Source of the DNA: a virus
Strand: one strand, 5' to 3'
Length of the DNA stretch: 24,721 nucleotides
IMG/VR virus record: IMGVR_UViG_3300034198_003517
Span: 1 to 24,721 of that record
Position 1 is the first letter of the stretch, and every line of letters begins with the position of its first letter. Both the position numbers and the translations under genes were made by a program. The notes beneath the pieces were generated by a model. That model did not search any database and was not told the DNA's origin. It worked only from the letters and a program-made list of their open reading frames with translations. Positions 1,940 through 17,836 of the stretch are shown here, one piece after another.

Positions 1940-2753
1940 AAGTGATCAACTAATATTTGTATTGGCCAGTCCAGCCGGTGGTGGCTACAGGTTGGGCAGA
2001 ATATTATGTTGTTTTAATAATGTTTTTTGGTATTCTTGCGTAAGAAATGGAATGTTTCCGTATAGTATTTTTAGAAAAAATCCCAATAAACCTAGACTAG
2101 CTGCCGCTAAGGTCAAAGGAAGAACTATTAGTAAATATCACTTTGACAGAAGAACACAGACGGGTATGATCCCGTTGTTAGGAGAACGTATTGAAAAGTT
2201 TTGGAAAGATAACCAGCTAGAAACTCTTTATAAAGAAAACTGGAACAATGAATTTAGGATAGCTGGCGGGCCTGAAATACTTAATATTGGAGCAAGTATA
2301 CTCTGGGTACTTCATGATATTCCGTCAAATTTAGAAAATAAATTTCCAAATGCTAAGATTATTAATCTATTAGATGATGACATTTATTCTGTTATTGATC
2401 GATACCTAACAACTACTGCTCTATTTCCTTTTAAAATAGAAAATACAAATTTAAAACCTCTAGAAGATAACCAAGTTAGTAAAGACTTGGCAGAGTTAGA
2501 AAAGTTAAATGCAAATCCTACCTATAGAGATTATTGGGCCTGGACAAATAAGGGTGTTCCTGTGTATGATAATCTTTTCAACGAAGATTACATAAAATAT
2601 GTATCATCAATCATAATAAGTCAGCAACAAGAATTGACAAAAGAAAATCCCAAGTACCTTACAGTAACTTGGGATACATTAAATATTGAATCTATTAAAC
2701 AGTTTATAGGTGCATCGTCTATAGACGAACACTATAAACAGCTTTTAGTGTAG
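1926..2753 (+). CDS. Divergent sulfotransferase-like P-loop protein
   Basis: The 275-residue protein opens with a beta strand and glycine loop, LIFVLASPAGGGYRLGRIL (residues 9-27), resembling the 5'-phosphosulfate-binding loop of sulfotransferases. A later FPNAKIINLLDDD fits the strand that carries the 3'-phosphate site, and LTVTWDTL near the C-terminus fits the last core strand. It lacks the KSHWF and RPDD-type motifs of the three clearer paralogues in this window, so its activity is doubtful. It overlaps the preceding gene by 14 bases. It ends with TAG, the only TAG stop among the complete genes here, and the next in-frame codons are TGC and TAA. Its 3' end overlaps the convergent minus-strand gene by 9 bases. 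Confidence 0.5.
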   Translation: MDYTKSDQLIFVLASPAGGGYRLGRILCCFNNVFWYSCVRNGMFPYSIFRKNPNKPRLAAAKVKGRTISKYHFDRRTQTGMIPLLGERIEKFWKDNQLETLYKENWNNEFRIAGGPEILNIGASILWVLHDIPSNLENKFPNAKIINLLDDDIYSVIDRYLTTTALFPFKIENTNLKPLEDNQVSKDLAELEKLNANPTYRDYWAWTNKGVPVYDNLFNEDYIKYVSSIIISQQQELTKENPKYLTVTWDTLNIESIKQFIGASSIDEHYKQLLV

Positions 2754-3335
2754 TGCTAATTGTCTAGGTACTGTATCGGCGGAAAGTTCACCAACATAAG
2801 GAGTAATAGTAATTGTTTCGTTGGTCATATTAAGAGTGGTGGCTAGAGCTTCATCGCTGAATGTAAACATATCATTAGCATCTACATTATACCAAGTGGC
2901 TCCTACTCCTGCTGCGGTGCTGTTAACCAAAGCAATTTGCTCTGTTAACAGTTCTCTAAAAGCTGATTCGTTGTATTCAATGTGATGTTCTAAAAGACGT
3001 AGTCCTGCTTCGATACTTTTAGCTTCATCTTCTTTTCTAACAAAAATGATTCTAGATTCTGCGGCCCAGTTTGTCCTAATAGCCATTGCGTGTCTTGTTA
3101 TTTCAGTTCCTGAAATAATAACCTCAGTAGGCACTGTTCTAGCGTTATTAATAAAATCTTGCACACGCTGAATAACTTCTTCGGCAGTTAAGTTACTGTC
3201 AATTAAAATTTTATCGGGTCTGCCCAAAACCATACGGGCTGCACGATAACCTCTACGAAATGTTTCCATTCGTAATTCAGTGCAAACTTCAGTAATACCT
3301 GTTCCGATTGTTCCTGCAACTATGTATATTCTCAT
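2745..3335 (-). CDS. P-loop-like protein with degenerate Walker A
   Basis: The N-terminus MRIYIVAGTIGTGITEV looks like a kinase or sulfotransferase P-loop (GxxGxG) but has no lysine where Walker A needs one. A strand VPTEVIISGTEI and a later SRIIFVRKEDE fit an alpha/beta NTPase core, and the C-terminus is beta-rich (NETITITPYVG). I chose ATG 3335 over a TTG 24 bases upstream because the P-loop strand starts right there, though no strong ribosome site is visible. It is the last gene of the long minus-strand unit and follows a sulfotransferase-like gene. The 5619-6170 protein has a similar glycine loop and may be a relative. Function unknown; loss of the lysine argues against normal ATP hydrolysis. 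Confidence 0.6.
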   Translation of the reverse strand: MRIYIVAGTIGTGITEVCTELRMETFRRGYRAARMVLGRPDKILIDSNLTAEEVIQRVQDFINNARTVPTEVIISGTEITRHAMAIRTNWAAESRIIFVRKEDEAKSIEAGLRLLEHHIEYNESAFRELLTEQIALVNSTAAGVGATWYNVDANDMFTFSDEALATTLNMTNETITITPYVGELSADTVPRQLALH

Positions 3336-3362
3336 TTTTGTGTCCAGACTTATATACAATAT

Positions 3363-4040
3363 TTATTCAATTTTTGTATAACATACTTTAATATTATCTT
3401 GAATATTTGGTTCAGCTTTGAACAGTTTAGGAACAGCTTCTGGAAATCTTTCCATTACCCAATTAGTGCTATAATTATTCCATTCGAAATTCTTTCTTTC
3501 AGCAAAGTCTGCAATTTTGTTAGTTTCTTCTTGAATCTTTTCCCACATACGTTCTTCGTTTACATACCACTTGTATATAGGATAGTAAATGTCAAAGCCG
3601 CCCATATGGAACCACCAGTCCTTTGCAGCCTGTGGTTCACGCCATACTAGCAATAGATCGTGCCCTTTACAGTTTTCCCAGATCCAGTCTAAATTGTAGG
3701 CAAACCAGTGACTTTTGATTTGCTTAAGGGGCTGTGTATTGTCGCTGAACGGCTTCAAACATTCTTGTTCAAATGCTTCCCTAGTATAATGATTCAAATT
3801 ATCAAAGTTATGCCCAAACTCGTGATACGGCCCGAAGTAAGCACCGTTATGAGTATACGCTCTCCAAGAGTCATCTGTCACAGTATAATCCTTAGTATGC
3901 TCAATAGGCATACGATACATCCTATCAGGGCTCTGGTCTGTCATATCGTAGCCTGTTAGTTGTAAACGCATACGCTGACAAATCATACTCCAGGCTGATC
4001 CCGGAGCTCCTGTGCATAAAATTAGTTTAGGTTCATTCAT
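3363..4040 (-). CDS. Sulfotransferase-like protein, copy 1
   Basis: The 225-residue product begins MNEPKLILCTGAPGSAWSM, a glycine loop like the 5'-phosphosulfate-binding loop of PAPS-dependent sulfotransferases. It continues with GAYFGPYHEFG, KSHWFAYNLD (109-118) and LLLVWREPQAAKDWW (129-143), the last resembling the RxPxxxxxS 3'-phosphate region. The 7595-8464 and 14792-15484 proteins share all these blocks, so the three are paralogues. In this copy the loop lysine (GSKWSG in the others) is alanine, which may affect activity. ATG 4040 was chosen over an upstream in-frame start because it lies one base after the oxygenase stop and directly precedes the first core strand. The likely role is sulfonate transfer to a hydroxyl; the acceptor is unknown. 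Confidence 0.7.
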   Translation of the reverse strand: MNEPKLILCTGAPGSAWSMICQRMRLQLTGYDMTDQSPDRMYRMPIEHTKDYTVTDDSWRAYTHNGAYFGPYHEFGHNFDNLNHYTREAFEQECLKPFSDNTQPLKQIKSHWFAYNLDWIWENCKGHDLLLVWREPQAAKDWWFHMGGFDIYYPIYKWYVNEERMWEKIQEETNKIADFAERKNFEWNNYSTNWVMERFPEAVPKLFKAEPNIQDNIKVCYTKIE

Positions 4041-4041
4041 A

Positions 4042-5019
4042 TTAGGCAGTGTATACAAAAGTTTCAGTCCCATCTTCGTGTTGTTGATAGGCATCAAATC
4101 CAGGCTTTCCATCTTTGCGTGGACGATATCGCATCATATGATTGCCTAGATTGTAAAAGTTCCAAGTTTTTTCTGTTAAGTATCCGGTCAGGTGTACACT
4201 ATATCTAGATTTATTTGATAGATTACAAGTTGCGTGTGGCATATCGTTGTGATTCCAGGTAATACACTCACCGGCACGCCAATGACTCCAAGTAGTATTA
4301 CCCACACTCCATATATGCCCAGGCCGCCAATCTTCCATAAAAATCACAAATCGTTTTAATTTTTCAGGTTTCCAGGCCAACTCTTGATCCTTGTCACGGA
4401 TAACGGCGCTATAAATGTCGTGATGCATCATTAAAATCTGCCCAGGTCGTTGAATATGAAAGCTGTCATAGCCATAATCTCTTTGAGCACCTTCTTGAGC
4501 CTTATCAAAATCTAATCCTAAAAATTCACCTATGCGTTGACAGCCAGCACCAGGTTTAGCACTGTCAAACATTATTAGATCTTCTAGTTTGAGACCCAAC
4601 TTCTCAGCATCGTTGACCATGCTATGCGGATAATGTGTACTAGTCTTTTCCATATGTTCCGGCGTACCAGTTCGTTGTATCAAATTGATAGGACCAAAAT
4701 TATTAGATTCTGCAAATTCTATTTCAGCTTGCCAATCGATACCTTCAAAAATACCCAGACGATCAATAACACAGTCAATGGGATCGGGACCAAATCTAGT
4801 TTCGTCGTAGTTGCTGTAGGTCTTACCGTGTAACCAACGGCTGGGTTTGCCAGTGTCGGGATCAAACCAATCACGAGGATGCCTAAAGTTAGGTTTAGGG
4901 CCTTCTCCTCGTTTATAGGCAAGATACTGTTGATCCCAAATGTGTTGACGCTCTTGTAGAGCTTTTTGTTTTACAACCCATTGCTCATGAGGTATTTTTC
5001 TAATTAACTGTTTGCTCAT
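4042..5019 (-). CDS. 2-oxoglutarate/Fe(II)-dependent oxygenase, long form
   Basis: The C-terminal half of this 325-residue protein is a double-stranded beta-helix oxygenase. The iron ligands appear to be H199 and D201 (MMHHDIY) and H262 (MPHATCN), and R272 (KSRYSVHLTGY) is the expected 2-oxoglutarate-binding arginine. The intervening FVIFMEDWRPGHIWSVGN and WRAGECITWNH recur in the other three related oxygenases here. About 180 extra N-terminal residues, with an opening segment rich in Arg, Lys and Trp, set it apart and may recognise substrate. The start lies one base after the stop of the upstream methyltransferase, with AGAGAG as a modest ribosome site. The family hydroxylates or otherwise oxidises unactivated C-H bonds; the substrate cannot be read from sequence. 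Confidence 0.85.
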   Translation of the reverse strand: MSKQLIRKIPHEQWVVKQKALQERQHIWDQQYLAYKRGEGPKPNFRHPRDWFDPDTGKPSRWLHGKTYSNYDETRFGPDPIDCVIDRLGIFEGIDWQAEIEFAESNNFGPINLIQRTGTPEHMEKTSTHYPHSMVNDAEKLGLKLEDLIMFDSAKPGAGCQRIGEFLGLDFDKAQEGAQRDYGYDSFHIQRPGQILMMHHDIYSAVIRDKDQELAWKPEKLKRFVIFMEDWRPGHIWSVGNTTWSHWRAGECITWNHNDMPHATCNLSNKSRYSVHLTGYLTEKTWNFYNLGNHMMRYRPRKDGKPGFDAYQQHEDGTETFVYTA

Positions 5020-5020
5020 A

Positions 5021-5626
5021 TCATCTCTCTAATTTTGCACAACTAATAGGATCGATAGAATATTTCTTTAGTTCCCCAGGTTTCTGCCACCACCAAACCA
5101 ATCTGCTACTCTTAGGAGCTTTGTCAACAAAAGGTCCTTTGATCATAGTTAGGTTGTTAGAGTCTCCAAATTCTTGAATGTCTCTATCATTCCATACATA
5201 GTGTACATCACTGTAAGGTATTTCTTCTTCTTTAAATTCGTATAGTGTTCGCATCACAATGTATCCACCGGGTTTAAGCCAAGTAACTACTTTATCTAGA
5301 TTTTCTTTGACAAATTCTCTACTGCCGAATTGTATACTACCCAGCACCAATAACACGTCTGCACTTTCAGGTCTGAAATTAATGCTTAATATATCAGCCT
5401 GGATGTCGATCATCGGGAACGGTTGCGGATCGAACCCTATTAGATTTTTAATATGTCCTTTGAAACGATTGTGACCGCAACCTACATCGATTACTAGATC
5501 GGGATCTAGTGCATTAATTTCATCAATTAAATTCATACCGCTATGTATATAATGCTGAAAGGCCATATAACCATCCCATCTTTTAGGATTAAATTTAGCA
5601 TTTAATCTTAGTTGTTGATTATCCAT
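5021..5626 (-). CDS. Class I SAM-dependent methyltransferase, copy 1
   Basis: This 201-residue protein has motif I LVIDVGCGHN at about 44-53, an acidic post-I region IGFDPQPF, a motif II-like DVLLVLGSIQFG at about 90-101 and motif III WLKPGGYIVMRT. The sequence around motif I (DxGCGxNxFKGxIKNLxGxD) is nearly shared with the proteins at 6167 and 14070, so the three form one family. The start has AGGAAG 6-8 bases upstream and overlaps the preceding gene by 8 bases. It sits directly before the long oxygenase, so hydroxylation and methylation may act on the same substrate. O- or N-methylation of a small molecule or glycan is plausible; nothing indicates DNA or rRNA specificity. Confidence 0.82.
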   Translation of the reverse strand: MDNQQLRLNAKFNPKRWDGYMAFQHYIHSGMNLIDEINALDPDLVIDVGCGHNRFKGHIKNLIGFDPQPFPMIDIQADILSINFRPESADVLLVLGSIQFGSREFVKENLDKVVTWLKPGGYIVMRTLYEFKEEEIPYSDVHYVWNDRDIQEFGDSNNLTMIKGPFVDKAPKSSRLVWWWQKPGELKKYSIDPISCAKLER

Positions 5627-6170
5627 ACATTCTTCCTACGGAAATTTTAATGGAAGCAGGTTTAGGATCGTCATTAACTGGCAATACTGTAAAGTTTTCG
5701 TCAAATATGTTTTCGTCTGCTATAATATTGATCCAGTTAGCTTGTACACGATCTGCAATTCTATGTACAGACTCGTCAACTATTTCGACCTTTTCCTTAA
5801 ACGCATCGGGTCCACCTTGTCGCTCAATCATGTCTGCAGGGTTGCCGCTGAGCCCTATCTTCTTAAGGGCTTCTCTATCATATCGACTTACACAGATAAA
5901 CACACTATCAGTATACTCTTCGTAAATTTCTCTAAAAAATTTACAGATCCACCAACCGGAATGTATTTCATATTCTTCTAGTTGGCCTTCCTTATAATTA
6001 GTGTCGATTACGGATTTCAGTTCTTGCCATGTTACATCAGTACTAAACTTTACTCGCTTATAAACAGGATCCTGTTCAAAGACTTTTTTAAAGTCGTCTC
6101 GCATATAAAGCTCTTCAGCAATGCGTAGTATACCACTACCCGGAGCGCCGAACACAAATACTTTGGTCAT
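5619..6170 (-). CDS. P-loop-like protein related to the sulfotransferase-like group
   Basis: Starting at ATG 6170, preceded by a strong GGAGGTCT ribosome site and overlapping the upstream methyltransferase stop as ATGA, the protein has 183 residues. It opens MTKVFVFGAPGSGILRIAEE, a loop like the GAPGSKWSG loop of the neighbouring sulfotransferase-like proteins but with Ile at the lysine position. The stretch HSGWWICKFF followed by SVFICVSRYDREALKKIG parallels the KSHWF and RPDD blocks of that group. The C-terminal ADENIFDENFTVLPVND resembles the beta-rich tail of the 2745-3335 protein. It may be a small, degenerate sulfotransferase or nucleotide-kinase relative. It lies between two methyltransferases in the same unit. 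Confidence 0.6.
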   Translation of the reverse strand: MTKVFVFGAPGSGILRIAEELYMRDDFKKVFEQDPVYKRVKFSTDVTWQELKSVIDTNYKEGQLEEYEIHSGWWICKFFREIYEEYTDSVFICVSRYDREALKKIGLSGNPADMIERQGGPDAFKEKVEIVDESVHRIADRVQANWINIIADENIFDENFTVLPVNDDPKPASIKISVGRMYG

Positions 6171-6817
6171 AGAGACCTCCATTTCCAAAATAAGCGAATG
6201 TTAGATCGTCGCTGCCCTACAAAATTTGAATCCATTCTATCCCTAATTCTAGCACTGCCCTGTGCTAAGGTTACTTCGCCTACAATTTCAAAATCTAGTT
6301 CTTTGGCCCACGACTCAACAAGTTCCTTGCTCCAATCGTAGTAGCGTAGATCGCCTTTGTGATCCTTGTCGTGATCGTTTTGATTGGCTCTGAAGTAGGC
6401 AACGCCGCCCGGCTTGAGCAAGCGTTTGACTTCTTTGAGTTGTTGCCCTATTAGATCTTCCTCGCCAAAGTTGATACTGCCTAATGCTAGTATAACATCA
6501 ACTGTGTGATCTGCAAAGTGTTCTTTCAAATCTGTGATGTCTTTGGTAATATCTTCTCGGCATCCTACAACATCGACACCTACTAGATTGTTAATCAAGC
6601 CCTTGTATTGATTTAGTCCACAGCCAAGATCAACTACAAGACTAGGATTTAGACTGTTTATTTCCTCTACCATAGTCTTGCCGTTGATAGGATACTTCTC
6701 AACTATTTTGGTTAGAAATACCTGTTTAGCATCGTCATCTCTAACTTCATAATTTTTACGAAGCTGAGATACAAATGCTTGTTTAACTGTTTCTACAATA
6801 TTAGAGTTCATCAACAT
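6167..6817 (-). CDS. Class I SAM-dependent methyltransferase, copy 2
   Basis: The 216-residue protein shows motif I LVVDLGCGLNQYKG (60-73), post-I GVDVVG, motif II DVILALGSINFGEED (107-121) and motif III RLLKPGGVAYFRAN (132-145). It is closest to the plus-strand methyltransferase at 14070, sharing GSxNF and YFRAN. Two starts are possible, ATG 6817 and ATG 6811, both inside the end of the preceding oxygenase gene; neither has a clear ribosome site, and translation is probably coupled. The substrate is unknown. The gene ends in an ATGA overlap with the next P-loop-like gene. Confidence 0.82.
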   Translation of the reverse strand: MLMNSNIVETVKQAFVSQLRKNYEVRDDDAKQVFLTKIVEKYPINGKTMVEEINSLNPSLVVDLGCGLNQYKGLINNLVGVDVVGCREDITKDITDLKEHFADHTVDVILALGSINFGEEDLIGQQLKEVKRLLKPGGVAYFRANQNDHDKDHKGDLRYYDWSKELVESWAKELDFEIVGEVTLAQGSARIRDRMDSNFVGQRRSNIRLFWKWRSL

Positions 6818-7598
6818 TAAAATTCTTTGGAAAGTTTTTAAGAACTTCTAGAGTTCTATCAGTAATCGCTCCTGTGATATTTAATGTTGGACGAGGTTCA
6901 TGGCCGAAGTTTGCGGTTCCGTGTGGAATGTCTCTCCACGGCCACGTAAAGCAGTCACCCTTACGCCAACGCAATAGCTTGTTGCCCTGCTGCCAAATAT
7001 GTCCTGGTTTTTGATCATTTAGGAACACAATCATGCGGATCATCTTACGCTGATCGTAGTCGCAGTCGGCAAAGCGTTCGTAGTTGCCACGCTGGCCTTT
7101 CAGCAATGCCCCAAAGTTATCCAAGTGATAATAGAACATCTGACCGGGATATTGTATATCAACTCTAGACACCGTTGGGATTTCTAAATGAAATAAGTCT
7201 ACAATCTTTTTAAGTTTACCTACTAACTCTACTTTAGCACGATTGAAAACAATATAAGGGTTATCGCCTTCCGTAACATAACCCCAACGATCAAAGTCGT
7301 TCTTCTCCATCTCGTTGTTGTTTTGTAGCCTTGGCTTGCCACGGAGATCAAATGAAAACGGTTTGGCCTGCTCTGTCATATGCTTTACATCATCGGCCCA
7401 ATCTCCTTCAAATCGTGTTAGCGGAATATACAAAGGGTTTATACAAGTGCCAGTTCGCTGATCATCTACAGTCATATCGAAGTGATAGTTGCTGGTTGCC
7501 TTGCACCACTCGTATAAACTATCGTAACCTTGACTGCTCACTGGCGGCTTGGTCACAATGTTCATGTATTCTTCGTAGAAGTTGTTGTCAAAGTTCAT
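6801..7598 (-). CDS. 2-oxoglutarate/Fe(II)-dependent oxygenase
   Basis: The 265-residue protein has the iron triad H158-x-D160 (FYYHLDN) and H226 (DIPHGTAN), with R236 (HEPRPTLNITG) as the likely 2-oxoglutarate anchor. The core block RMIVFLNDQKPGHIW plus WRKGDCFTW matches the other three. The N-terminal SNYHFDMTVDD and TRFEGDWADD are a degenerate form of the YHFD...DPRWD...GDW segment seen in the two tandem copies upstream. Its ATG overlaps the stop of the sulfotransferase-like gene as ATGA, so the pair is translationally coupled. This is the second place in the window where these two enzyme types are adjacent. Hydroxylation of an unknown substrate is expected. Confidence 0.85.
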   Translation of the reverse strand: MNFDNNFYEEYMNIVTKPPVSSQGYDSLYEWCKATSNYHFDMTVDDQRTGTCINPLYIPLTRFEGDWADDVKHMTEQAKPFSFDLRGKPRLQNNNEMEKNDFDRWGYVTEGDNPYIVFNRAKVELVGKLKKIVDLFHLEIPTVSRVDIQYPGQMFYYHLDNFGALLKGQRGNYERFADCDYDQRKMIRMIVFLNDQKPGHIWQQGNKLLRWRKGDCFTWPWRDIPHGTANFGHEPRPTLNITGAITDRTLEVLKNFPKNFNVDEL

Positions 7599-8464
7599 AG
7601 TTCGTTACCTAAAGGAATCAGCGTTTCAATGCTGTGTACAGTTCGTTTAGTAAAGGCATTGTCAATTAAGTTCAACACAGGATGTACTCCTGTATTTTTA
7701 TTAGGATTGTAAACAGTAAACAGCGTATGACCTATCAACTGATTAAGTGCGCCAACGGCTGTAGTATTTGCTTCAGCAGTTTCAAGTCTTGTGATGTTTT
7801 TGCTTAGACTACCAGGATCAAAATATCTAAACGATTCTTCTTTGGCTTCTAGATCTACCATAGAACAAATGTCTTTAATGCCGCCTTTTATAATTTTTAG
7901 GTTTTTTTCAAAGATAAATTTTAGAATGAAAGCATTTTCCAATCTAATCTGACGCTGCATACGCTCGTCGTCTTTGTACCATGTATAAACAGGGAAGCTG
8001 ATATTCCAACCTCCTAGGTGACTCCACCAATCAAAACAACTTTCATCGGGTGCCCATACTAGAATGATCTTGGCTTTAGGAAAGTATTTGGTGATTGTGT
8101 CTAGGTTATAGGCAAACCAATGGCTTTTGATCATCTTAATGCCGTCCCAACTATCGTAGGGTCTTGCAATTTCTCTTACAACCTCTTCTTTAGTTAGTTC
8201 GTTTAGGCGATCAAATTCATGACCGTATTCATTGTCAGGTCCGAAGTAGACTCCAAAGTGCCAGCCCATACGTAGAACTTCTTCAGTTTGTGCCTGTTTG
8301 TAATAGATGAAGTACTGACGATGATCAGACTTATCTTGACTATTAAGTTCTTTGTGATAGGATAATGCGTTAAGCAGGCCGCTCCACTTACTGCCAGGCG
8401 CGCCTGTTGCGAAAATCAAATCCTCGCCTTGGTAGTTTTCAAAATCAAAATTTTCTAGGTTCAT
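7595..8464 (-). CDS. Sulfotransferase-like protein, copy 2 (extended C-terminus)
   Basis: This 289-residue paralogue has the loop ATGAPGSKWSGLLNAL (19-34), GVYFGPDNEYGHEFDRL, IKSHWFAYNLD (112-122) and IILVWAPDESCFDWW (133-147), followed by HLGGWNISFPVYTWYKDDERM, all shared with the other two copies. A C-terminal extension of about 60 residues ends in a hydrophobic, beta-prone stretch (HTLFTVYNPN, HPVLNLIDNAF) absent from the other copies; it may bind the acceptor. The ATG overlaps the upstream oxygenase stop as ATGA. The gene lies between two oxygenases. Sulfonate transfer is inferred from fold motifs; the cofactor site has not been verified. Confidence 0.7.
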   Translation of the reverse strand: MNLENFDFENYQGEDLIFATGAPGSKWSGLLNALSYHKELNSQDKSDHRQYFIYYKQAQTEEVLRMGWHFGVYFGPDNEYGHEFDRLNELTKEEVVREIARPYDSWDGIKMIKSHWFAYNLDTITKYFPKAKIILVWAPDESCFDWWSHLGGWNISFPVYTWYKDDERMQRQIRLENAFILKFIFEKNLKIIKGGIKDICSMVDLEAKEESFRYFDPGSLSKNITRLETAEANTTAVGALNQLIGHTLFTVYNPNKNTGVHPVLNLIDNAFTKRTVHSIETLIPLGNEL

Positions 8465-9150
8465 ACTTTTATGCTCTGTGAATTCAATGCGTTATTGATA
8501 AATGCTTTAGTAACAATTGTTTCGTGTCCAGTGATTTGTAGTGTTACTCTTGGAGTATGTCCAGCGTTAGCTGTACAGTGAGGAACATTAGGCCAGTCAA
8601 ATGTATGTATGTCCCCAGCTCGCCACCCCTGTACGCTTTCGTTGCCAAATTGATAAAAATGTCCAGGAGCCCAGTCTGTTAAGAACACCACTATTCTTTT
8701 AACTTGCTGTACTGTTACATCCTTGGGTCTCCACGAAAATGCAGACAATTTATCTATATGCTGTGTAAAGACTTCTCCTGGATACTGAACATGTACCCTA
8801 GTCTTTGATACAGGACCTAGCCCAATCATATTGGCCATATCTAAAAACTTTTTAGGTATCTTATCTTCATGTAGCATCCTAAGCAATATAATATTAGGAT
8901 CACAATTAGCCTTTATTAGGTCATGTTCTTCCTTTTCAATCATAGGACTAAGTGTATATTTTTTGTTATCTAGTCGTGTTCGCCAGGTAGTTGGTTCAGC
9001 AGTTTCTAAAACTTCTGCAAGTTCTTGACCCCAGTCACCTTCAAAGCGACCAATACCCTGTAGTTGGTCCCATCGGGGATCAAAGACAGTAGGATCAAAA
9101 TGATACTGGCTAGACTTTTTAGTAAACTCCCAACTGCTTACTTTGGGCAT
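8461..9150 (-). CDS. 2-oxoglutarate/Fe(II)-dependent oxygenase, tandem copy B
   Basis: The 229-residue protein has H131-x-D133 (FTQHIDKL), H191 (NVPHCTAN) and R201 (HTPRVTLQITGH), so all predicted catalytic positions are present. The core RIVVFLTDWAPGHFYQFGN and WRAGDIHTFDW is very close to that of its neighbour at 9138. Both also share the N-terminal pattern WE...YHFDP...DPRWD...GIGR..GDW. They are evidently a tandem duplication that has diverged. The start overlaps the end of the other copy by 13 bases and no good ribosome site is visible, so coupling is likely. Confidence 0.87.
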   Translation of the reverse strand: MPKVSSWEFTKKSSQYHFDPTVFDPRWDQLQGIGRFEGDWGQELAEVLETAEPTTWRTRLDNKKYTLSPMIEKEEHDLIKANCDPNIILLRMLHEDKIPKKFLDMANMIGLGPVSKTRVHVQYPGEVFTQHIDKLSAFSWRPKDVTVQQVKRIVVFLTDWAPGHFYQFGNESVQGWRAGDIHTFDWPNVPHCTANAGHTPRVTLQITGHETIVTKAFINNALNSQSIKV

Positions 9151-9806: not shown

Positions 9807-9829
9807 TAGATTCTCCAGTGTGTGGATAT

Positions 9830-10183
9830 TTAACCGTAGAGTCCACTGAAGATAAAATAATCACAAACAAAGGTTATTTCAGCGCCTATGAATACAGCAA
9901 CCCAATAGTTTTTAACTCTAATCCAAATTTGTTTAATCAACCACCAAGCAGCTATAACTCGCAGAGTGTAGAGTATATTGGACTTTATATATTCAATCCA
10001 GTGGGGTAGTTCGGCAGCATTAAAATAATAGCCAAAGACAAAAGTGTCGTAGGCAAAACTTAACTGTGCCATAATAAACACCGCCAAGTAGTAAGGCAGA
10101 TATTTGTTTAGGATTTTTACTATAGGCCCGCTGACTACCAGTCTGTAGGCCACATAGATTATATTTGTAAGTAGAAGTTCCAA
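9830..10183 (-). CDS. Small membrane protein with two-fold internal repeat, in the TctB position
   Basis: The frame follows the TctC-like stop directly and starts with TTG at 10183. The 117-residue product is strongly hydrophobic, with three or four likely membrane segments. It contains an internal duplication with a constant offset of 62 residues: TNIIY (6-10) matches SNILY (68-72), and LAVFIMAQLSFAYDTFVF (33-50) matches VAVFIGAEITFVCDYFIF (95-112). The classical third component of TTT transporters, TctB, is a small poorly conserved four-helix membrane protein, so position and topology fit, but sequence alone does not prove it. The TTG start and weak ribosome site are uncertain. Confidence 0.6.
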   Translation of the reverse strand: MELLLTNIIYVAYRLVVSGPIVKILNKYLPYYLAVFIMAQLSFAYDTFVFGYYFNAAELPHWIEYIKSNILYTLRVIAAWWLIKQIWIRVKNYWVAVFIGAEITFVCDYFIFSGLYG

Positions 10184-11251: not shown

Positions 11252-11261
11252 GTTGTCTCCT

Positions 11262-12713
11262 TTAAACATATTTGATTTTAGTCCTGTTAAAAAACACTCC
11301 GTAAATTCCCGCAGCTATCGCTACAGCAATCAGTCCACCACTAATTGGTCTTGTAACAAGATCCGACCAATTGTATAAATTAAAAAATTGTAAAGAAGTA
11401 GCTTCAAATCTATCGGCCAGGACAAAGCCAATAATCACTGCTGCTCTACTCAGTTTTAAATATTTGAAGGCTATACCTGCCGCAGCACACAGAGCAAATA
11501 TAGCATAGTCTTCCCAATAGCCTGTGTACTGTACGCAACTCCATGTCATCACGGCCAACAATGGCCAGAAGTAATAGTGGAAGGGCACATTCATTATCTT
11601 AATTGCATAACGAATAAAGAACAAGCTAATGACAAATGTAATAATCATGGCCGCAAAGTAGCTGCCACCTAACATCTTAAAGAATGTCATGTCTGCCAAC
11701 AACTGCGGTGTGCCTAATTCTATGCCCACATAGACAAACAGGCTCATGATAATGGCTTCAAAGGGTGCAGCTGGGATTCCAAACAATACAGTTGGCACAT
11801 AGGCTGTAGCTTTCTGTGCGTTGTTAGCACCTTCTGCTCCTATAACTCCTTTGATGTTACCTTCACCAAACGCAATCTTTTCGTTCTTGTTGGCTGCTAC
11901 TGTTTGTCCATAAGCCATCCAGTCTGCAATGTTGCCACCAACTCCGGGCAGTATACCAATGCCGGCACCGATGGCGCCACCTTTTAATCCGTCCCACTTG
12001 TGCTGCCAGCTGTCACGGAAGCCTTGAAATATCTGCGGCCAAATAGATCGGCTGTCTATGGCCACTGTGGCAATCTTAGATCTATAGGCTTCTAGCAATT
12101 CCGGAACAGCTAGAAATCCTGCAAGTACAGGAGCAATTTGTATGCCGGCTCCTAGATAATCCCAACCACCGGTGAATCGTGCAGCATTAGTCTGCGGATC
12201 AGTACCCACAAGTCCTAGAAAGATACCTATAATAGCAGCAATGATTCCGCGGAACCAATACTCGCTGTTGACAAAAATTATACAGGTAAAAGCCAAGATG
12301 ATAAAAGCAAACATCTCAGGTATGGCAAAGGCCAAAACTACTTTGGCATAGTAGGGCAAGAATAAGAATACAGCTCCTCCCCAAAGTATGCCGTTGACTG
12401 TGGATGTTGTAACTGCTGCGCTGAGTGCTCTTGCACCTTGACCTTGCCTAGCTAGAGGAAATCCGTCCACCATTGTGGCAGCACTGCCACTGGCTCCGGG
12501 AATATTCATTACCACGGACGCAAAGCTGTCACCTATGGTACAGGCAACAACTATTGCGGTAGTGAAAATTACCAGCGTATACGGATCATGTAAAAACAAA
12601 TCAATGAATCCATAAAGTACAACCAGTCCTGTGGCTGCACCTGCTACAGGAATAACACCGATTATAAATCCATATAGCGTACCTGCCAATAACCACATCA
12701 AGTATTCAATCAT
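11262..12713 (-). CDS. tctA: TctA-family permease, large membrane subunit of a tripartite tricarboxylate transporter
   Basis: The 483-residue protein is close to the family's usual 500 residues and has about eleven or twelve membrane segments. Family signatures are intact: NIPGASGSAATMVDGFPLAR followed by ARAL in the first half, GAIGAGIGILPGVGGNIADW in the middle, then GAEGANNAQKATAYVPTVLF with GIPAA in the second half. TctA is the transport channel that uses an ion gradient to move carboxylates delivered by TctC. The gene overlaps the amidotransferase stop as ATGA, so it is coupled to it. The intact motifs argue for selection to keep it working. It was probably acquired from a host. Confidence 0.9.
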   Translation of the reverse strand: MIEYLMWLLAGTLYGFIIGVIPVAGAATGLVVLYGFIDLFLHDPYTLVIFTTAIVVACTIGDSFASVVMNIPGASGSAATMVDGFPLARQGQGARALSAAVTTSTVNGILWGGAVFLFLPYYAKVVLAFAIPEMFAFIILAFTCIIFVNSEYWFRGIIAAIIGIFLGLVGTDPQTNAARFTGGWDYLGAGIQIAPVLAGFLAVPELLEAYRSKIATVAIDSRSIWPQIFQGFRDSWQHKWDGLKGGAIGAGIGILPGVGGNIADWMAYGQTVAANKNEKIAFGEGNIKGVIGAEGANNAQKATAYVPTVLFGIPAAPFEAIIMSLFVYVGIELGTPQLLADMTFFKMLGGSYFAAMIITFVISLFFIRYAIKIMNVPFHYYFWPLLAVMTWSCVQYTGYWEDYAIFALCAAAGIAFKYLKLSRAAVIIGFVLADRFEATSLQFFNLYNWSDLVTRPISGGLIAVAIAAGIYGVFFNRTKIKYV

Positions 12714-13252
12714 ATTAAGTTTAATATCTCTTTAGGAATAAAAGGACTAGACATTCTTTCAGGATGCCACACAATGCCTGCAATATTGTTAAGTATCCAT
12801 GCTTCACAATTGCCGGCTGAATCTCTGGCTAGGACTTCTGAACCGGTTGGCTCGCGATCTATTTTTAGTGTATGGTAACTATTAACCACTTGCTCGTGGT
12901 CATTACATATAATACTATGTTCTGTGTCCATATGCAAGTCCGTTTCACTAACTGTGCCGCCTAAAAGATGTGTTAATAGAAAGCAACCGTGACATATACC
13001 TATGATAGGTTTGCCTTTTATTAACATAGCTGTGGCTAGTTTTGTTTCTGTAATTCTTCTTTCTACCGGATCGTTACCTCCAGTAATTATCAGTAGATCA
13101 ATATCGTTGGCAATGACTTCAAAGTCTTGATCAATCCTATTCTGCACAAAAGAAAGCGTATGATCCTTTAGAAGAGTGTACCACCCGTGTTCTATTGAAT
13201 CATACGCTCTACCTTTATGGAACAGGACTCGTTGTGTGAGTCCTATTTTCAT
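12710..13252 (-). CDS. Class I glutamine amidotransferase / PuuD-like peptidase C26
   Basis: The 180-residue protein carries the class I amidotransferase triad: Cys87 in PIIGICHGC, with His163 and Glu165 in IVWHPERM. Upstream LLIITGGNDP (53-62) and VVNSYHTL (122-129) are typical of gamma-glutamyl-GABA hydrolase-like members (PuuD, peptidase C26). Such enzymes hydrolyse a gamma-glutamyl amide or supply ammonia to a synthetase. At 180 residues it is shorter than PuuD (about 250), so the N-terminal half is trimmed. It lies between a di-iron protein and tctA and overlaps tctA by 4 bases. Partner and substrate are unknown; it might release or transfer an amino group in the pathway encoded downstream. 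Confidence 0.85.
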   Translation of the reverse strand: MKIGLTQRVLFHKGRAYDSIEHGWYTLLKDHTLSFVQNRIDQDFEVIANDIDLLIITGGNDPVERRITETKLATAMLIKGKPIIGICHGCFLLTHLLGGTVSETDLHMDTEHSIICNDHEQVVNSYHTLKIDREPTGSEVLARDSAGNCEAWILNNIAGIVWHPERMSSPFIPKEILNLI

Positions 13253-13262
13253 AAGGTTATGA

Positions 13263-13961
13263 TTACCAACCGTAGGCTTCGGCTACTAACTTACGACCTT
13301 CCGGAACTGCTACAGTATTCTTGCAGCTGATGTCGTATAGATCTTTACGCATTTGTGCCACTAAAGATGTAACACGGGCTTGATCTTCGGCACTAGCTAA
13401 AAGCTGTTCTAACTTGCGGCCACCGATGTTGGCATGAAAGCCTTCGTCACGAGCAATCTTAGCGTAAGTCTTGCTGATAAACTCATCTTCAACACAGTCG
13501 GCCATTTGATCCCATACTGCTTCTGCACGACCTTCAGCAACTAACTGGTAAGCAGCTAGGGCTAGAGGATCTGTTTCTGCTTCGTACTTGGCCAACAAGG
13601 CAGCACCCTTGGCTGTTGGCTTTGCTGCTTCGGCGGCAATAGCTGCTTCAACATCTAGAGTTTCGCCAGTGATGTGCTCAATAACTTCTTTGACCATACG
13701 GAAGTGATTGGCTTCGTCGTGTGCTTGCTTGGTCAACAGTGCTAGTTCTTCAGCAGGGGTATCTGCAGGCATAGTAGCAATTGATTGTGCAATTTCAACC
13801 ATGTTCATACGCTCGTTGACCATGCGGCCAATAAAGTGTTCAACTAGTTCTTCTTGGGCAGGTTTACTGTCAAAGTAGGCTTTGACATTTAATTGGCTTG
13901 CTTTAAATAGTGCTTGATTGTCTTGTTTGATCTTAGCTACAAACTCTTTTCCTGTTAGCAT
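13263..13961 (-). CDS. Ferritin-like di-iron carboxylate protein (probable oxygenase/oxidase)
   Basis: The 232-residue, largely helical protein has the spaced ligands of a four-helix di-iron site: Glu50 (VNERMNM), Glu83-x-x-His86 (HDEANHF), Glu143 or Glu147 (VAEGRAEAVW) and Glu173-x-x-His176 (DEGFHANIG). Two ExxH pairs plus two single glutamates are the hallmark of ferritin-like oxidases and oxygenases. Ala-rich linkers and the absence of a signal peptide suggest a soluble cytoplasmic enzyme. AAGGAG lies 7 bases before the ATG, and as first gene of the leftward unit it probably sits behind a promoter in 13962-14069. It could oxidise a substrate of the same pathway; iron storage is less likely at this length and context. 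Confidence 0.75.
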   Translation of the reverse strand: MLTGKEFVAKIKQDNQALFKASQLNVKAYFDSKPAQEELVEHFIGRMVNERMNMVEIAQSIATMPADTPAEELALLTKQAHDEANHFRMVKEVIEHITGETLDVEAAIAAEAAKPTAKGAALLAKYEAETDPLALAAYQLVAEGRAEAVWDQMADCVEDEFISKTYAKIARDEGFHANIGGRKLEQLLASAEDQARVTSLVAQMRKDLYDISCKNTVAVPEGRKLVAEAYGW

Positions 13962-14005
13962 TTTGTGTCTCCTTGATAACTATATATGCTCGTAGAATAA
14001 AAAAA

Positions 14006-14043: not shown

Positions 14044-14069
14044 ATTTACCAAAAAAAGGAAAATTTTAA

Positions 14070-14810
14070 ATGAACACCAGAATTTTTAATATGATTGCAG
14101 AAAAATTAGAGGTAGCCTTTAATTTGCCCAAGTATCAATCTGTTAGAGATTCCCTGTCTAAAGACACTGTAGTCACTGAGTTGCCTTGGACTCCTGCCCG
14201 CTTTAAAAAGTTTGAAGACGGTGTAAAAGCCGAACTGCAATTTGACACCATTGATTTCGCCGGCAGTCTTGAAGCCGCAGTAGATCGCTTGGATAAGCGT
14301 TACCTAAACAGATTCTTTGGGGAGATTTGGAAGCCAACTACAGAAATTTATCAGTACAGTGGTTGGGGACTTGTTGAAGAAATCAACAAAGCTGATCCTA
14401 AAGCGGTATTAGACTTTGGCTGCGGGTACAATCCATTCAAGGGTCGCATCAAGAATCTAGTGGGCATTGATCCCTATAACAACTGTGCAGACTACATGGT
14501 TGATATTCTAGAGTTTAAAATAGAACCAGAGAGCTTTGATCACATCATTGTCTTTGGTAGCTTGAACTTTAACAGTCGTGACGAGATTGATGTACGCTTT
14601 GAGAAACTAGTCAGCTTCTTGATGCCCGGCGGCAAGATGTACTTTAGAGCTAATCCCGGAATATTATGGCCAAATGGACCTTACGTAGATATTTTTCCCT
14701 GGAGTTTTGAAGTTGCCTACGAACTAGCACAGCGTCACAACTTAGATCTTGAAACATTCAAGAAAGACAATAACGATAGACTGTACTTTGTTTATAAGAA
14801 AAAGTCTTGA
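14070..14810 (+). CDS. Class I SAM-dependent methyltransferase, copy 3 (extended N-terminus)
   Basis: The 246-residue protein has motif I AVLDFGCGYNPFKG (112-125), post-I VGIDPYNN, motif II IIVFGSLNFNSRDE and motif III FLMPGGKMYFRAN (183-195). It is a paralogue of the 5021 and 6167 proteins but has about 50 more N-terminal residues, mostly helical. The start is supported by AAAAGGA 9 bases upstream. It is alone on the plus strand between two minus-strand units. Its 3' end overlaps the convergent sulfotransferase-like gene by 19 bases, so transcription from both sides could interfere. It may be an independently regulated member of the methyltransferase set. Confidence 0.82.
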   Translation: MNTRIFNMIAEKLEVAFNLPKYQSVRDSLSKDTVVTELPWTPARFKKFEDGVKAELQFDTIDFAGSLEAAVDRLDKRYLNRFFGEIWKPTTEIYQYSGWGLVEEINKADPKAVLDFGCGYNPFKGRIKNLVGIDPYNNCADYMVDILEFKIEPESFDHIIVFGSLNFNSRDEIDVRFEKLVSFLMPGGKMYFRANPGILWPNGPYVDIFPWSFEVAYELAQRHNLDLETFKKDNNDRLYFVYKKKS

Positions 14811-15484
14811 TTCCAGATAGCTATCTGAACATCATTCATAGTCTGAGCGTGTACCAAATGGTTGTTAACCCATTCGCGCTCAGACTCTGCTAGATCATCT
14901 ACAGTCCAATCAAATTGCGTTTTTAGATATTCAGCGTTGAAATTGTATAACTGAATATCTTTTCTTTTACAAAAATCCCGCATCTTTTCATTGTGTTCTG
15001 CAATGCGAAACTTCATAGTGACATCGTCTCGGTAGTAAGGTCGATAGTTAGGATAGCTGATGTTCCATCCACCTGCACCGAACCAGCCTTGCTCACAACG
15101 ATCGTCGGGCCTAAATATCATTATGATAGGCTGTGTTGGCCAAGTATGTGCAATGTAGTCAAGGCCCTCGGAGAAGAAATGACTTTTTACCAGTAGATTA
15201 CCGTAGCTAGGATTGAACCATTCGTTGACTATTTGTCTTTCAACTTCAGCAACTGCAAGATTTTCTAGTTGATGAAACTGTTCTCCAAGACCGTGCCCCG
15301 GGCCAAAGTAAGCACCTGTATGAAATATTTTAGTAGCTAATCGACTAGGTCCAATATGTTGATACTGTCTTTGATCATTGCGATCAGATATATTAAAGTT
15401 TAATTTCTTTATAGATTGCAAGACATTTGCAACCCCACTCCATTTACTACCAGGTGCTCCGGTATACCATACTAGGTTATTCAT
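14792..15484 (-). CDS. Sulfotransferase-like protein, copy 3
   Basis: The 230-residue protein begins MNNLVWYTGAPGSKWSGVAN and keeps all shared blocks: HTGAYFGPGHGLGEQFHQLE, VKSHFFSEGLD (99-109), IIMIFRPDDRCEQGWFGAGG (120-139) and NISYPNYRPYYRDDVTM. RPDD corresponds to WREP and WAPD in the other copies and keeps the arginine expected of a 3'-phosphate site. It is the last gene of the tail-fibre unit, its ATG overlapping the AspH-like stop as ATGA. Again a sulfotransferase-like gene is paired with an oxygenase. PAPS-dependent sulfonation is inferred. Confidence 0.72.
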   Translation of the reverse strand: MNNLVWYTGAPGSKWSGVANVLQSIKKLNFNISDRNDQRQYQHIGPSRLATKIFHTGAYFGPGHGLGEQFHQLENLAVAEVERQIVNEWFNPSYGNLLVKSHFFSEGLDYIAHTWPTQPIIMIFRPDDRCEQGWFGAGGWNISYPNYRPYYRDDVTMKFRIAEHNEKMRDFCKRKDIQLYNFNAEYLKTQFDWTVDDLAESEREWVNNHLVHAQTMNDVQIAIWNQDFFL

Positions 15485-15981
15485 TCGGATACTTCTATTA
15501 CTAGATGAAATCGATCTTTATCCGAACAGTTCATAGCCGTATGAAATTTCGTAGTATCAGTCCACCAATACGATCCTCGATACAGATGCATTGATTCATT
15601 ACTAATGACCATAAAATTGTCAGGGTGAGTTATTAACGGCACATGAATTCTTGGTGTTAGATCTCTGTGCCACGAGTAACAGAGTCTAGGACGCATACGC
15701 ATCACCCTAATTCTTCCTATAATTCGAGGACTAAGTTCAGATAAGAAAGAGTGTAACCAGGCCTGATTGTAACATTGATCTCTCCAATGATTCCAATCTT
15801 CTAATTTTACTCCTAGTCTAGTTTTTCCCTCGCCAAAATCAACACTTTGATCATCATTCAATCTTCCTTTTAATCCAAACTGATCAGTATTTGAGTTAAC
15901 CATATTTTCAATTATAGGATTGAATTGTTCTAGAGCCTGAGTCATATTGACTTTGCCTAAAACTTTAAAGTAATCGCTCAT
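15481..15981 (-). CDS. Aspartyl/asparaginyl beta-hydroxylase-like 2OG/Fe(II) oxygenase
   Basis: The 166-residue protein is a compact cupin-type oxygenase. H105-x-D107 (YSWHRDLTP) and H147 (KFHTAMN) are the likely iron ligands and R157 (DRFHLVIEV) the 2-oxoglutarate anchor. HRDLTPRIHVPLITHPDNF followed by LYRGSYWW is the typical run of aspartyl/asparaginyl beta-hydroxylase-like proteins, a branch separate from the four other oxygenases here. GGAG lies 8 bases before ATG 15981, which overlaps the upstream stop as ATGA. Family members hydroxylate Asp/Asn in proteins or small substrates. Downstream of a tail-fibre-type gene in the same direction, that protein is a possible but unproven substrate. 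Confidence 0.83.
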   Translation of the reverse strand: MSDYFKVLGKVNMTQALEQFNPIIENMVNSNTDQFGLKGRLNDDQSVDFGEGKTRLGVKLEDWNHWRDQCYNQAWLHSFLSELSPRIIGRIRVMRMRPRLCYSWHRDLTPRIHVPLITHPDNFMVISNESMHLYRGSYWWTDTTKFHTAMNCSDKDRFHLVIEVSE

Positions 15982-16589
15982 TGTTTAACTCCTACAACCA
16001 TAAATCGTTTGTAATAGTCTAGGTCTAGAGTCTGACAAAATTTAAAATCTAGAGGATATTTTTGTTTAGTTTCTTCTAGACTTATACAAATATTAGGGTG
16101 ATCTTTACTTACATAATCGGTGCTGTGAATAAACATTAATGTATTTTGAGGCATACGATTAAACCAACTATGATCTGCAATGTGTTCTGAACTAGGATTA
16201 ATTACTGCATCATAATCTAGTTTAATGTCATTAACATCTGCTGTTAGATGTTTGAAATTTTTATTAAATCTGTTTAGATGATTAGCAAACTTTTCTAACC
16301 TTGCGTCTGGATCAACTTCGGTTATGTTGCGGTAGCCCATCTTCCATAAACAGAAGCTGGTAAAACCAAACCACGAACCTATTACTAATATTCTAGCATC
16401 CTTATCACAATATTTTTCTACAGCATCAAGTAACCATGCCTTACCTTGCATCTGCTTGACACGAAATGCATCTCGCATTTCTTTCAAGTCAGTGGATTCG
16501 AATACTGCATCGTTGAATAATGCATTCATGACCTCGGGAATATAACCAGCAGGCCTAGTGTAGTCAATAGTGTTAACTGTGTTGCTCAT
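15978..16589 (-). CDS. SAM methyltransferase-like Rossmann protein
   Basis: The 203-residue protein has a Rossmann opening RILVIGSWFGFTSFCLWKMG (66-85), then ITEVDPDARLEKF, in which the acidic EVDPD fits the ribose-binding residue of class I methyltransferases. LDYDAVINPSSEHI (124-137) takes the motif II/IV place and NTLMFIHSTDYV the next strand. It is not closely related to the three GCG-type methyltransferases in the window; GSWFG replaces GxGxG, so cofactor use is probable but not certain. It overlaps the upstream GT-like gene by 17 bases and the AspH-like gene by 4, clearly part of one message. Confidence 0.6.
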   Translation of the reverse strand: MSNTVNTIDYTRPAGYIPEVMNALFNDAVFESTDLKEMRDAFRVKQMQGKAWLLDAVEKYCDKDARILVIGSWFGFTSFCLWKMGYRNITEVDPDARLEKFANHLNRFNKNFKHLTADVNDIKLDYDAVINPSSEHIADHSWFNRMPQNTLMFIHSTDYVSKDHPNICISLEETKQKYPLDFKFCQTLDLDYYKRFMVVGVKQ

Positions 16590-17250
16590 TAAAGTAATTT
16601 TTTAACCATGTGTAATTATTAATATTGTGTATATCGTTGTTATCATCTTGTATGTATGTAACTGCATCTAGATATCCCTGGTAAGCCCACGATGCATTAT
16701 TAGTGCCGTTATCTAGATTGCCACAGTTTTTCCATTGTTCTAAATATGCATCAGCATAATTTAGGCTCGGTCGAGATTTAAAAATTGGAGACATAATTTT
16801 GACACAATGTCTAAAGGCAGTCTTCCATGCTTCGTAGGCAGTATTATTGTAATTAGTCTGACTAAAAACTTTTCTAAGAGACATCTTTTTGGCTGTAGCA
16901 TTTAGACAGAAGTCGCCTTTACTCATATCTTTGTTAATGATCGAGTCTTTCCTCCATAACTTGACTCCTCCTAAATTAGTAGGCATTCTGCTTATCGGGT
17001 CAAGAGCATTAAACAATAACAAATCGGCTGGACATTCAATATCCCAAACTAACTCTTCTAGTAGCCAGTTATCTCCGTCAACAGTCCAGAAATAGTCGCT
17101 GTCACATAAGTCGTTGCAGGCTAGGTGTACACGATCAATTCCTTTCACCCCGTGTATACGAATTGCACTAGGGTGCAATTCTAGCACTCTTTGCCAATTT
17201 GTTTCTTGGTTAGATTCGTTGAAAGAAATAAAAAATATATTTTGCGTCAT
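16573..17250 (-). CDS. Putative GT-A-type glycosyltransferase-like protein
   Basis: The 225-residue protein opens with a strand NIFFISFNESN and continues RIHGVKGIDRVHLACNDLC. DYFWTVDGDNWLL (52-64) then has the acidic DGDN cluster expected at the metal- and nucleotide-sugar site of GT-A glycosyltransferases. LGGVKLWRKDSI (93-104) resembles the next acceptor-side strand. The C-terminal third is helical and rich in Asn and Tyr. No ribosome site is visible; a 55-base AT-rich spacer separates it from the SDR gene. With an SDR, methyltransferase, oxygenase and sulfotransferase around it, it would fit glycan building or modification. Sugar and acceptor unknown. Confidence 0.5.
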   Translation of the reverse strand: MTQNIFFISFNESNQETNWQRVLELHPSAIRIHGVKGIDRVHLACNDLCDSDYFWTVDGDNWLLEELVWDIECPADLLLFNALDPISRMPTNLGGVKLWRKDSIINKDMSKGDFCLNATAKKMSLRKVFSQTNYNNTAYEAWKTAFRHCVKIMSPIFKSRPSLNYADAYLEQWKNCGNLDNGTNNASWAYQGYLDAVTYIQDDNNDIHNINNYTWLKNYFNEQHS

Positions 17251-17305
17251 TGATGCGTTTAAATAGTTGAATATTTAACGCTAGAAGACTGCCTTAACAA
17301 TATTT

Positions 17306-17836
17306 TTACTTGCCAAGACTTATATCGTAGATTTTAAATTCAGCACTATTAGTCAAAACAAAATTTATAACATCTGCTATTGCCTGCGGATTTATTTTTG
17401 GTTCATCAAATCCTGCAACTCTAGGAACATCTACCCAGCTAGGGCGAATGTTAACCATATGAGGGTGCGGTGCCGATGCTCGCAGTTGTTTAACTGTTTG
17501 ATCTAGTGCGTGTTTGTAGATAGTATAGGGATGATCGCGTCGTTGTGTAAACTCTGTACCATACGAGCCTATAGTGATTATGGTTTTAGACGGATTGTCT
17601 TTCCACGATAACCAAACTTTTCTTAATAGTTCGGTCTGTGCCCAGCCGTGTTGAAACGAATGTGCATTGTTTATAAAGCAGTCACAGTTGATTATTTCAG
17701 CTGCAACCCGATCGGTGTCTTTGATGTCCCAACCATTGCTTCTGCTATAACCAAAAACCTCGTAGTTTTTAGCTACGAGGTCTTTGTAAACTGCTGCTCC
17801 AATTCCTTTAGAGTGTCCAGTTAGTGCTATTTTCAT
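17306..17836 (-). CDS. Short-chain dehydrogenase/reductase (short form)
   Basis: The 176-residue protein has the SDR cofactor motif TGHSKGIG (6-13), the structural INNAHS (55-60), and the catalytic set Ser91 (IITIGSYG) with Tyr104 and Lys108 in PYTIYKHA. The usual SDR is about 250 residues; here the substrate-binding C-terminal part is reduced. Arg31 after the second strand (GYSRSN) suggests NADP(H) preference. It begins 7 bases after the tail-fibre-type stop. The AAAGG is directly against the ATG, so initiation may depend on coupling. It probably oxidises or reduces a hydroxyl/keto group on a sugar or small molecule of the neighbouring pathway. Confidence 0.82.
   Translation of the reverse strand: MKIALTGHSKGIGAAVYKDLVAKNYEVFGYSRSNGWDIKDTDRVAAEIINCDCFINNAHSFQHGWAQTELLRKVWLSWKDNPSKTIITIGSYGTEFTQRRDHPYTIYKHALDQTVKQLRASAPHPHMVNIRPSWVDVPRVAGFDEPKINPQAIADVINFVLTNSAEFKIYDISLGK

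Follow-up and report, generated by a model that had tools for sequence, protein, structure and literature searches.

Introduction

2-Oxoglutarate (2OG)/Fe(II) oxygenases are common unexplained genes in marine T4-like phages. A 2OG-FeII oxygenase gene and tctA have both been reported on SUP05 viral contigs and classed as putative auxiliary metabolic genes, with no known role given for tctA (PMC4164917); sulfotransferase and 2OG oxygenase genes have been listed in OM43 phages, where the function of the phage sulfotransferase was called unclear (PMC10580990); and large freshwater phages carry cysC/cysH, interpreted as assimilatory sulfate reduction (PMC10914622). Here we analyze a 24,721-base IMG/VR virus record (IMGVR_UViG_3300034198_003517; hereafter, the window) that encodes sulfotransferase-fold proteins (ST), 2OG/Fe(II) oxygenases (OX), methyltransferases (MT) and a TctA/TctC-type carboxylate transporter. 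Both gene types of the SUP05 contigs occur in the window, whereas neither a sulfotransferase nor a shared cassette was described in that report. The OM43 genes belong to the typical PF13469 and PF13640 families, and no linkage, transporter or methyltransferase was described with them. The freshwater phage genes are of a sulfate-activation type, and a cysC-like gene found near the present module is not specific to it.

A first-pass annotation of the window had noted its methyltransferase, oxygenase and sulfotransferase-like genes, and stated that no phage system of this arrangement was known to have been described; targeted literature searches likewise found no paper on the gene combination. 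The comparisons reported below indicate that the viral 2OG oxygenase, sulfotransferase and tctA annotations, until now separate, are parts of one recurring cassette. Scattered annotations thereby become a testable pathway, in which a molecule would be hydroxylated and then sulfated, with a dedicated carboxylate transporter. If this is true, phages would make modified small molecules (or sulfated adhesins), a role undescribed for phages in the literature searched; should the product be a dedicated viral metabolite, the cassette would be categorically new among those of phage auxiliary metabolism.

Gene organization of the window

Every gene named in the first-pass annotation was recovered from the list of open reading frames (ORFs) at the same coordinates. 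Most of them fall into two runs. Run A consists of 15 tightly packed genes on one strand, extending from ferr (13961) to k2745 (2745) in the order, from right to left, ferr, GAT, TctA, TctC, TctB-like, OX4, OX3, ST2, OX2, MT2, k5619, MT1, OX1, ST1 and k2745; GAT and the three transporter-type genes are thus embedded within the same run as the enzymes. Intergenic gaps in run A range from -71 to +23 bp, and the value of -71 becomes approximately zero under a corrected start for ST1. Run B consists of six genes on one strand (20180 to 14792), namely a tail fibre gene with an Mtd_N domain, SDR, g16573, MT4, OX5 and ST3. The packing suggests a single transcript for each run. A terminator-like hairpin lies upstream of run B (20284-20263); across the region, the count of terminator-like sites was not above that in shuffled sequences, and neither were promoters above shuffled expectation. 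MT3 is divergent and located between the two runs, and to the left of run A are AMPb (the ANL gene described below), g1364 and g1926, which run towards it.

Sulfotransferase-fold proteins and their enzyme partners

ST1 (3363..4040, minus strand), ST2 (7595..8464, minus) and ST3 (14792..15484, minus) are paralogous, as had been proposed, with reciprocal phmmer E-values of 6e-25 to 6e-40. The ORF of ST1 is open to 4112; its start is probably 4040, in which case ST1 is clear of OX1 except for the region of the stop codon. A further GAPGS P-loop protein, k5619 (5619..6188, minus; Sulfotransfer_4 at E 0.024, below the cut-off), had been left out of the earlier count. To place these proteins structurally, a model of ST3 was predicted from a 44-member alignment (predicted local distance difference test, pLDDT, 95.2). 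The best structural alignment was to tyrosylprotein sulfotransferase 1 (TPST1), with Z 10.0 over 174 residues, a root-mean-square deviation of 3.4 and 13% identity. The top 12 chains were all sulfotransferases (Z 10.0 to 7.5), heparan-sulfate sulfotransferases being found among the fold matches, and guanylate and UMP kinases scored 7.5 or lower. The first-pass annotation had named such a comparison as one way to overturn its assignment of the GAPGS proteins; in the predicted model the fold came out sulfotransferase-like. Residues G9, G12, W15 and H102 are invariant across the 44 sequences, and the loop TGAPGSKWS differs from the textbook motif. Alongside this glycine loop and the invariant tryptophan, the family strongly conserves a K-[SC]-H stretch that resembles the sulfotransferase stretch bearing the catalytic histidine.

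The first-pass annotation had counted five 2OG/Fe(II) oxygenases. All five are present; four of them form one family and the fifth belongs to another. OX1 (4042..5019, minus) and OX2 (6801..7598, minus) were assigned by paralogy and conserved residues, OX3 (8461..9150, minus) by its predicted structure (pLDDT 91.8) and OX4 (9138..9806, minus) by 46% identity to OX3; paralogy among the four has reciprocal phmmer E-values of 2e-17 or better. The OX3 model is a double-stranded beta-helix that aligns with proline 3-hydroxylase (Z 12.2), PiuC and PHD2, with Z about 11-12 for the group. An HxD...H iron triad (H131, D133 and H191) and a distal arginine (R201) are invariant in 45 OX sequences. OX3 is therefore like these enzymes in its fold and metal triad, whereas sequence identity to them is 10-16%, from which a substrate cannot be inferred. 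OX5 (15481..15981, minus) is of the Asp/Asn beta-hydroxylase type (PF05118, Asp_Arg_Hydrox, E 2e-8; 34.5 bits against a cut-off of 22.6) and has no detectable sequence relationship to OX1-OX4. At all three places in the window a sulfotransferase-fold gene directly adjoins an oxygenase gene, in agreement with the first-pass annotation: OX1/ST1, OX3/ST2/OX2 (with 4-bp overlaps between ST2 and each of its partners) and OX5/ST3.

MT1 (5021..5626, minus) and MT2 (6167..6817, minus) are class I methyltransferases by their matches to Methyltransf_11 (22.2 bits against a cut-off of 21.2, and 26.1 bits, over the cut-off, respectively). Their proposed paralogy with the divergently transcribed MT3 (14070..14810, plus) was borne out by reciprocal phmmer E-values of 1.5e-22 or better. 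MT4 (15978..16589, minus) is a putative divergent methyltransferase with no relevant Pfam match.

Recurrence of the cassette in aquatic viruses

Relatives in viral contigs numbered at least 571 for OX, 297 for ST and at least 553 for TctC. To assess linkage, loci were dereplicated at 85% and gene adjacency was compared with 1,000 shuffles. Among the 75 loci collected through OX, ST was present in 63, MT in 65 and TctC in 59; after dereplication to 48 loci, the counts were 41, 41 and 37. ST and OX were immediate neighbours 31 times in these 48 loci, against a mean of 5.5 and a maximum of 14 in the shuffles. A 4-base overlap joined the two genes in 24 of the 31 adjacencies, with ST first in 23 and OX first in one, and this arrangement of ST followed by an overlapping OX suggests coupled translation. 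The 37 dereplicated loci collected through TctC contained TctA in 37, MT in 32, ST in 30 and OX in 23. Here TctC adjoined ST 12 times (shuffle mean 3.7, maximum 10) and MT adjoined ST 19 times (mean 4.1, maximum 11); ST-OX adjacency was not above the shuffles in this set alone (6; mean 2.8, maximum 8). Related genomes in which the module genes are not neighbours had also been proposed at the outset as a route to refutation; in related viruses these genes proved to be neighbours. Gene order varies between viruses and the partner genes stay together. A typical freshwater core has MT on one strand and TctC, ST and OX in this order on the other (<MT TctC> ST> OX>), flanked by PhoH and lysin genes.

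The carriers are large aquatic phages, many of them T4-like: of 39 carrier records tested, 19 gave a match above cut-off to the T4-type major capsid protein (Gp23), contigs of more than 300 kb among them, and the carriers without a Gp23 match are mostly shorter and may be fragments. Among sequenced phages, the only matches to ST were two records, both from a single-cell marine virus, and no relatives of OX or of the ANL gene described below were found. PHROGs and NCBIfam gave no useful label for ST, OX or TctC.

An APS (adenosine 5'-phosphosulfate)-kinase-like gene lies near many copies of the module (39 loci; best PDB match APS kinase, 1.5e-9). We considered it as a linked supply of 3'-phosphoadenosine 5'-phosphosulfate (PAPS) and rejected it, since an independent scan for the gene gave 80 loci of which just 12 had ST/OX close by, as would be expected of a general phage gene, and since its partner domain resembles nicotinamide mononucleotide (NMN) adenylyltransferase. 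A phage protein that fuses APS-kinase-like and NMN-adenylyltransferase-like domains was observed (L248 10639-11436 and relatives); it adjoins a NADAR gene in Stenotrophomonas phage Bhz60. This fusion may account for some of the 'cysC' annotations in phages, and it may have no part in sulfate assimilation. A second P-loop family (GPQGSGNHxFSR), with no Pfam match, often directly follows OX (L250 3531-4178, L081 11277-11933 and 47 other loci).

Carboxylate transporter genes

The transporter genes of run A had gone unremarked in the first-pass annotation. TctA (11262..12713, minus) is the membrane subunit of a tripartite tricarboxylate transporter (PF01970, 297.9 bits). TctC (10184..11269, minus) is a divergent TctC/Bug-type periplasmic solute-binding protein, matched by a BugD profile at E 3e-4; BugD is its best solved relative by sequence, and a hydrophobic signal-like N-terminus is found throughout the family. 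Between TctC and the oxygenases lies a small hydrophobic protein (9830..10183, minus), an ORF that we call TctB-like by its position and size only; it has 17 distinct viral homologs, mostly located between TctC (before) and OX (after). The window therefore resembles the tripartite tricarboxylate transporters and Bug proteins in having a TctA family member and a BugD-like binding protein, and differs from them in that the viral TctA forms a distinct clade, the TctB-like protein has no TctB Pfam match, and the TctC Pfam model matched none of 24 TctC-family members. Viral TctA is about 30-36% identical to its best cellular relatives in 563 sampled genomes, with the exception of 47% identity to a phage-like Pelagibacter-bin contig. 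Recent transfer of TctA from a host is not supported at this distance from the sampled cellular proteins, and it seems that the transporter, like the enzymes, has long been resident in viruses. With transporter genes inside the enzyme run, a small molecule is suggested as the target of the enzymes no less strongly than a virion protein.

Of the two genes to the right of TctA, GAT (12710..13252, minus) is a class I glutamine amidotransferase/peptidase C26-like protein (PF00117, 51.4 bits; PF07722, 49 bits), and ferr (13263..13961, minus), the first gene of run A, is a ferritin-like protein and probable diiron oxygenase, with weak RNR-small/AurF matches and 47% identity to a PaaA_PaaC-type protein of Tahibacter. 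The last gene of the run, k2745 (2745..3359, minus), is an ORF for a P-loop protein of unknown type (AAA_18 at E 0.05 only).

Cellular relatives and evolutionary history

Cellular genomes hold hardly any members of the module families. When 84,980 cellular species were scanned with one short peptide pattern, which distant cellular relatives could escape, only two ST relatives appeared, in a Pelagibacter-bin contig and in Tahibacter aquaticus. The 7.9-kb Pelagibacter-bin contig (L262), in which TctA, TctC, ST, OX and MT are consecutive, is probably a viral fragment. The only clear cellular ST relative is thus that of T. aquaticus DSM 21667 (30% identity), which is followed by an MT homolog (39%) and has a ferr homolog (47%) nearby. 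This cluster (L261 4412-12624) is like the phage module in holding ST, MT and ferr homologs together. It differs in having a sulfatase, an arginine-deiminase-family protein, a MATE exporter and two Sulfotransfer_3-type proteins, one at E 2e-35 and one that at E 9e-6 falls narrowly short of the curated cut-off, and in that profiles for OX and TctA/TctC found nothing in it. That three families of the phage module are found together here, in a sulfate-handling setting and beside an exporter, speaks for sulfate chemistry and for a small molecule. The Tahibacter cluster itself looks like an undescribed sulfated-metabolite cluster.

The first-pass annotation had described the neighbourhoods as assembled by duplication. 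When 127 ST proteins were placed in a quick tree, ST1, ST2 and ST3 fell into three separate clades (support 99, 99 and 100), each with orthologs in other viruses (L028, L010, L011 and L199 for ST1). The ST3 clade is tied to OX5 and tail fibres, and the majority of the remaining clades are found with TctC, MT or OX. On this quick tree we reject a recent local duplication of ST, so the earlier proposal holds only in the sense of distant paralogy; the ST copies are best described as old paralogs that have been kept and reshuffled.

A possible small-molecule tailoring pathway

We tentatively propose, with confidence a little short of even, that the region encodes a virus-resident pathway for tailoring a small molecule by uptake, hydroxylation, sulfation and methylation. 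The TctA/TctC-type importer would bring a carboxylate substrate into the cell. Hydroxylation there would be the work of the 2OG/Fe(II) oxygenases and probably also of the diiron protein ferr. The hydroxyl so formed would then receive a group, in all likelihood sulfate, from the co-translated ST, and the methyltransferases would methylate the molecule or a sibling, possibly to the benefit of the phage. Because the phage of the window has several old paralogs of each enzyme, there is probably more than one product variant, and the ST3/OX5/MT4 set that is linked to the fibre may be a branch recruited to modify a fibre or surface structure. The multi-step tailoring module envisaged in the first-pass annotation thus stands as regards the sulfotransferase-fold and 2OG oxygenase genes and their conserved neighbourhood; sulfate transfer is a step that we continue to infer. 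We regard as doubtful a more general proposal, in which a specialised-metabolite pathway evolved in viruses and belongs to aquatic T4-like phages; such a pathway would include a dedicated importer and coupled hydroxylase-sulfotransferase pairs, would have radiated among viruses through paralogy and shuffling, and would hardly occur in cells.

Several observations weigh against a tailoring pathway of this kind. No scaffold-building enzyme (polyketide synthase or non-ribosomal peptide synthetase) was seen, so the starting molecule would have to be imported or host-derived; TctC occurs without TctA in many loci; the module has no gene for PAPS synthesis that is specific to it; and ST3, OX5 and MT4 are placed with the tail fibre, not with the transporter. 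As for ST itself, Foldseek E-values for ST3 were not significant. The tyrosylprotein sulfotransferases are the nearest solved fold, whereas the serine that binds the 3'-phosphate in these and other PAPS enzymes is absent from the phage family, with Gly or Trp at the expected position, and the 3'-phosphate-binding Arg is found in just 28 of 44 sequences. It is because of these two residues that we use the label 'sulfotransferase-fold' and treat PAPS as a putative donor.

The missing 3'-phosphate site also raises the possibility that the GAPGS proteins are P-loop transferases of other chemistry, for example kinases, on a sulfotransferase-kinase fold, with the remainder of the pathway unchanged. 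The top Foldseek rank for ST, O-phosphoseryl-tRNA kinase, would agree with this, although it is itself non-significant, and so would the Pfam sulfotransferase scores of 12-14 bits, below the cut-off of 27. We nevertheless consider it quite unlikely, given that the family has no Walker A GK[ST], that its K-[SC]-H stretch is sulfotransferase-like, that sulfotransferases alone made up the 12 best structural alignments (Z up to 10, against 7.5 for kinases), and that the Tahibacter copy sits among true Sulfotransfer_3 proteins and a sulfatase.

Fibre-linked and left-hand genes

The first gene of run B encodes a tail fibre-like protein (17844..20180, minus; Mtd_N domain, PF18454, 43.4 bits). It is followed by SDR (17306..17836, minus), which is short-chain dehydrogenase/epimerase-like (PF00106, E 3.7e-5; phrog_3142, E 2.6e-9), and by g16573 (16573..17250, minus), which has no Pfam match and is glycosyltransferase-like by eye only; g16573 is upstream of the MT4 homolog in 7 of 12 distinct cases. 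The contiguity of these genes with MT4, OX5 and ST3 on one strand suggests a different target for the enzymes, namely proteins of the virion itself, the tail fibre or others, whose side chains would be hydroxylated by OX, sulfated by ST and methylated by MT so as to diversify the adhesin. Consistent with this, OX5 is of the Asp/Asn-hydroxylase type and the other oxygenases are proline-hydroxylase-like, ST has a protein-tyrosine sulfotransferase as its nearest fold, members of the ST3 clade directly follow the fibre (L033, L034) or OX5, and a module gene is next after 8 of 19 distinct Mtd_N ORFs. However, most copies of the module are not visibly linked to a fibre (Mtd_N fibres were found in 35 of roughly 415 loci examined), and even this linkage is biased upward, the loci having been collected via module genes. 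Virion modification also gives no role to the transporter, amidotransferase-like and diiron genes. We therefore judge it unlikely for the module as a whole and possible for the fibre-linked sub-cassette.

At the left-hand side of the window are three genes on the plus strand. The first encodes a minimal ANL (AMP-binding) enzyme (654..1385), a linked satellite of the module whose match to PF00501 (42.1 bits) covers just positions 170-377 of 384; at 243 amino acids the protein does not hold full N- and C-terminal domains. Next come g1364 (1364..1939), a GNAT-like protein by its profile match to GNAT acetyltransferase (E 0.003), and g1926 (1926..2753), which is remotely related to the ST family (hhalign probability 71%, E 3.8e-5). 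Genes for ANL, GNAT and g1926 are repeatedly found next to the module in viral contigs. This recurrence, together with the SDR and glycosyltransferase-like neighbours of run B and the heparan-sulfate enzymes among the ST fold matches, could be taken to mean that the module alters a host surface glycan or lipid during infection, by sulfation, methylation and ANL/GNAT-dependent acylation, and thereby blocks superinfection or attack. However, we found no gene that could be confirmed as a member of a glycosyltransferase, flippase or polymerase family, and a solute-binding importer would be unexpected in such a system; modification of the host surface accordingly seems to us quite unlikely, and we retain the tailoring of a small molecule as the preferred explanation of the module.

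The minimal ANL enzyme, which is without a C-terminal lid domain, is conserved in at least 178 viral contigs. In three viral contigs (L006 10658-11935; L046 843-2096; L050 10686-11939) g1364 and g1926 are fused into a protein of 417-425 amino acids, from which we conclude that the two proteins probably act together. Arrays of radical SAM genes, as many as six in number and in part with SPASM, stand next to ANL/GNAT genes in marine viral contigs (L137, L048, L151 and about 70 other loci). At the other end of the window, positions 24140-24700 hold a release-factor-like ORF with a partial PCRF and an RF-1 domain, its start cut or short near the window end.

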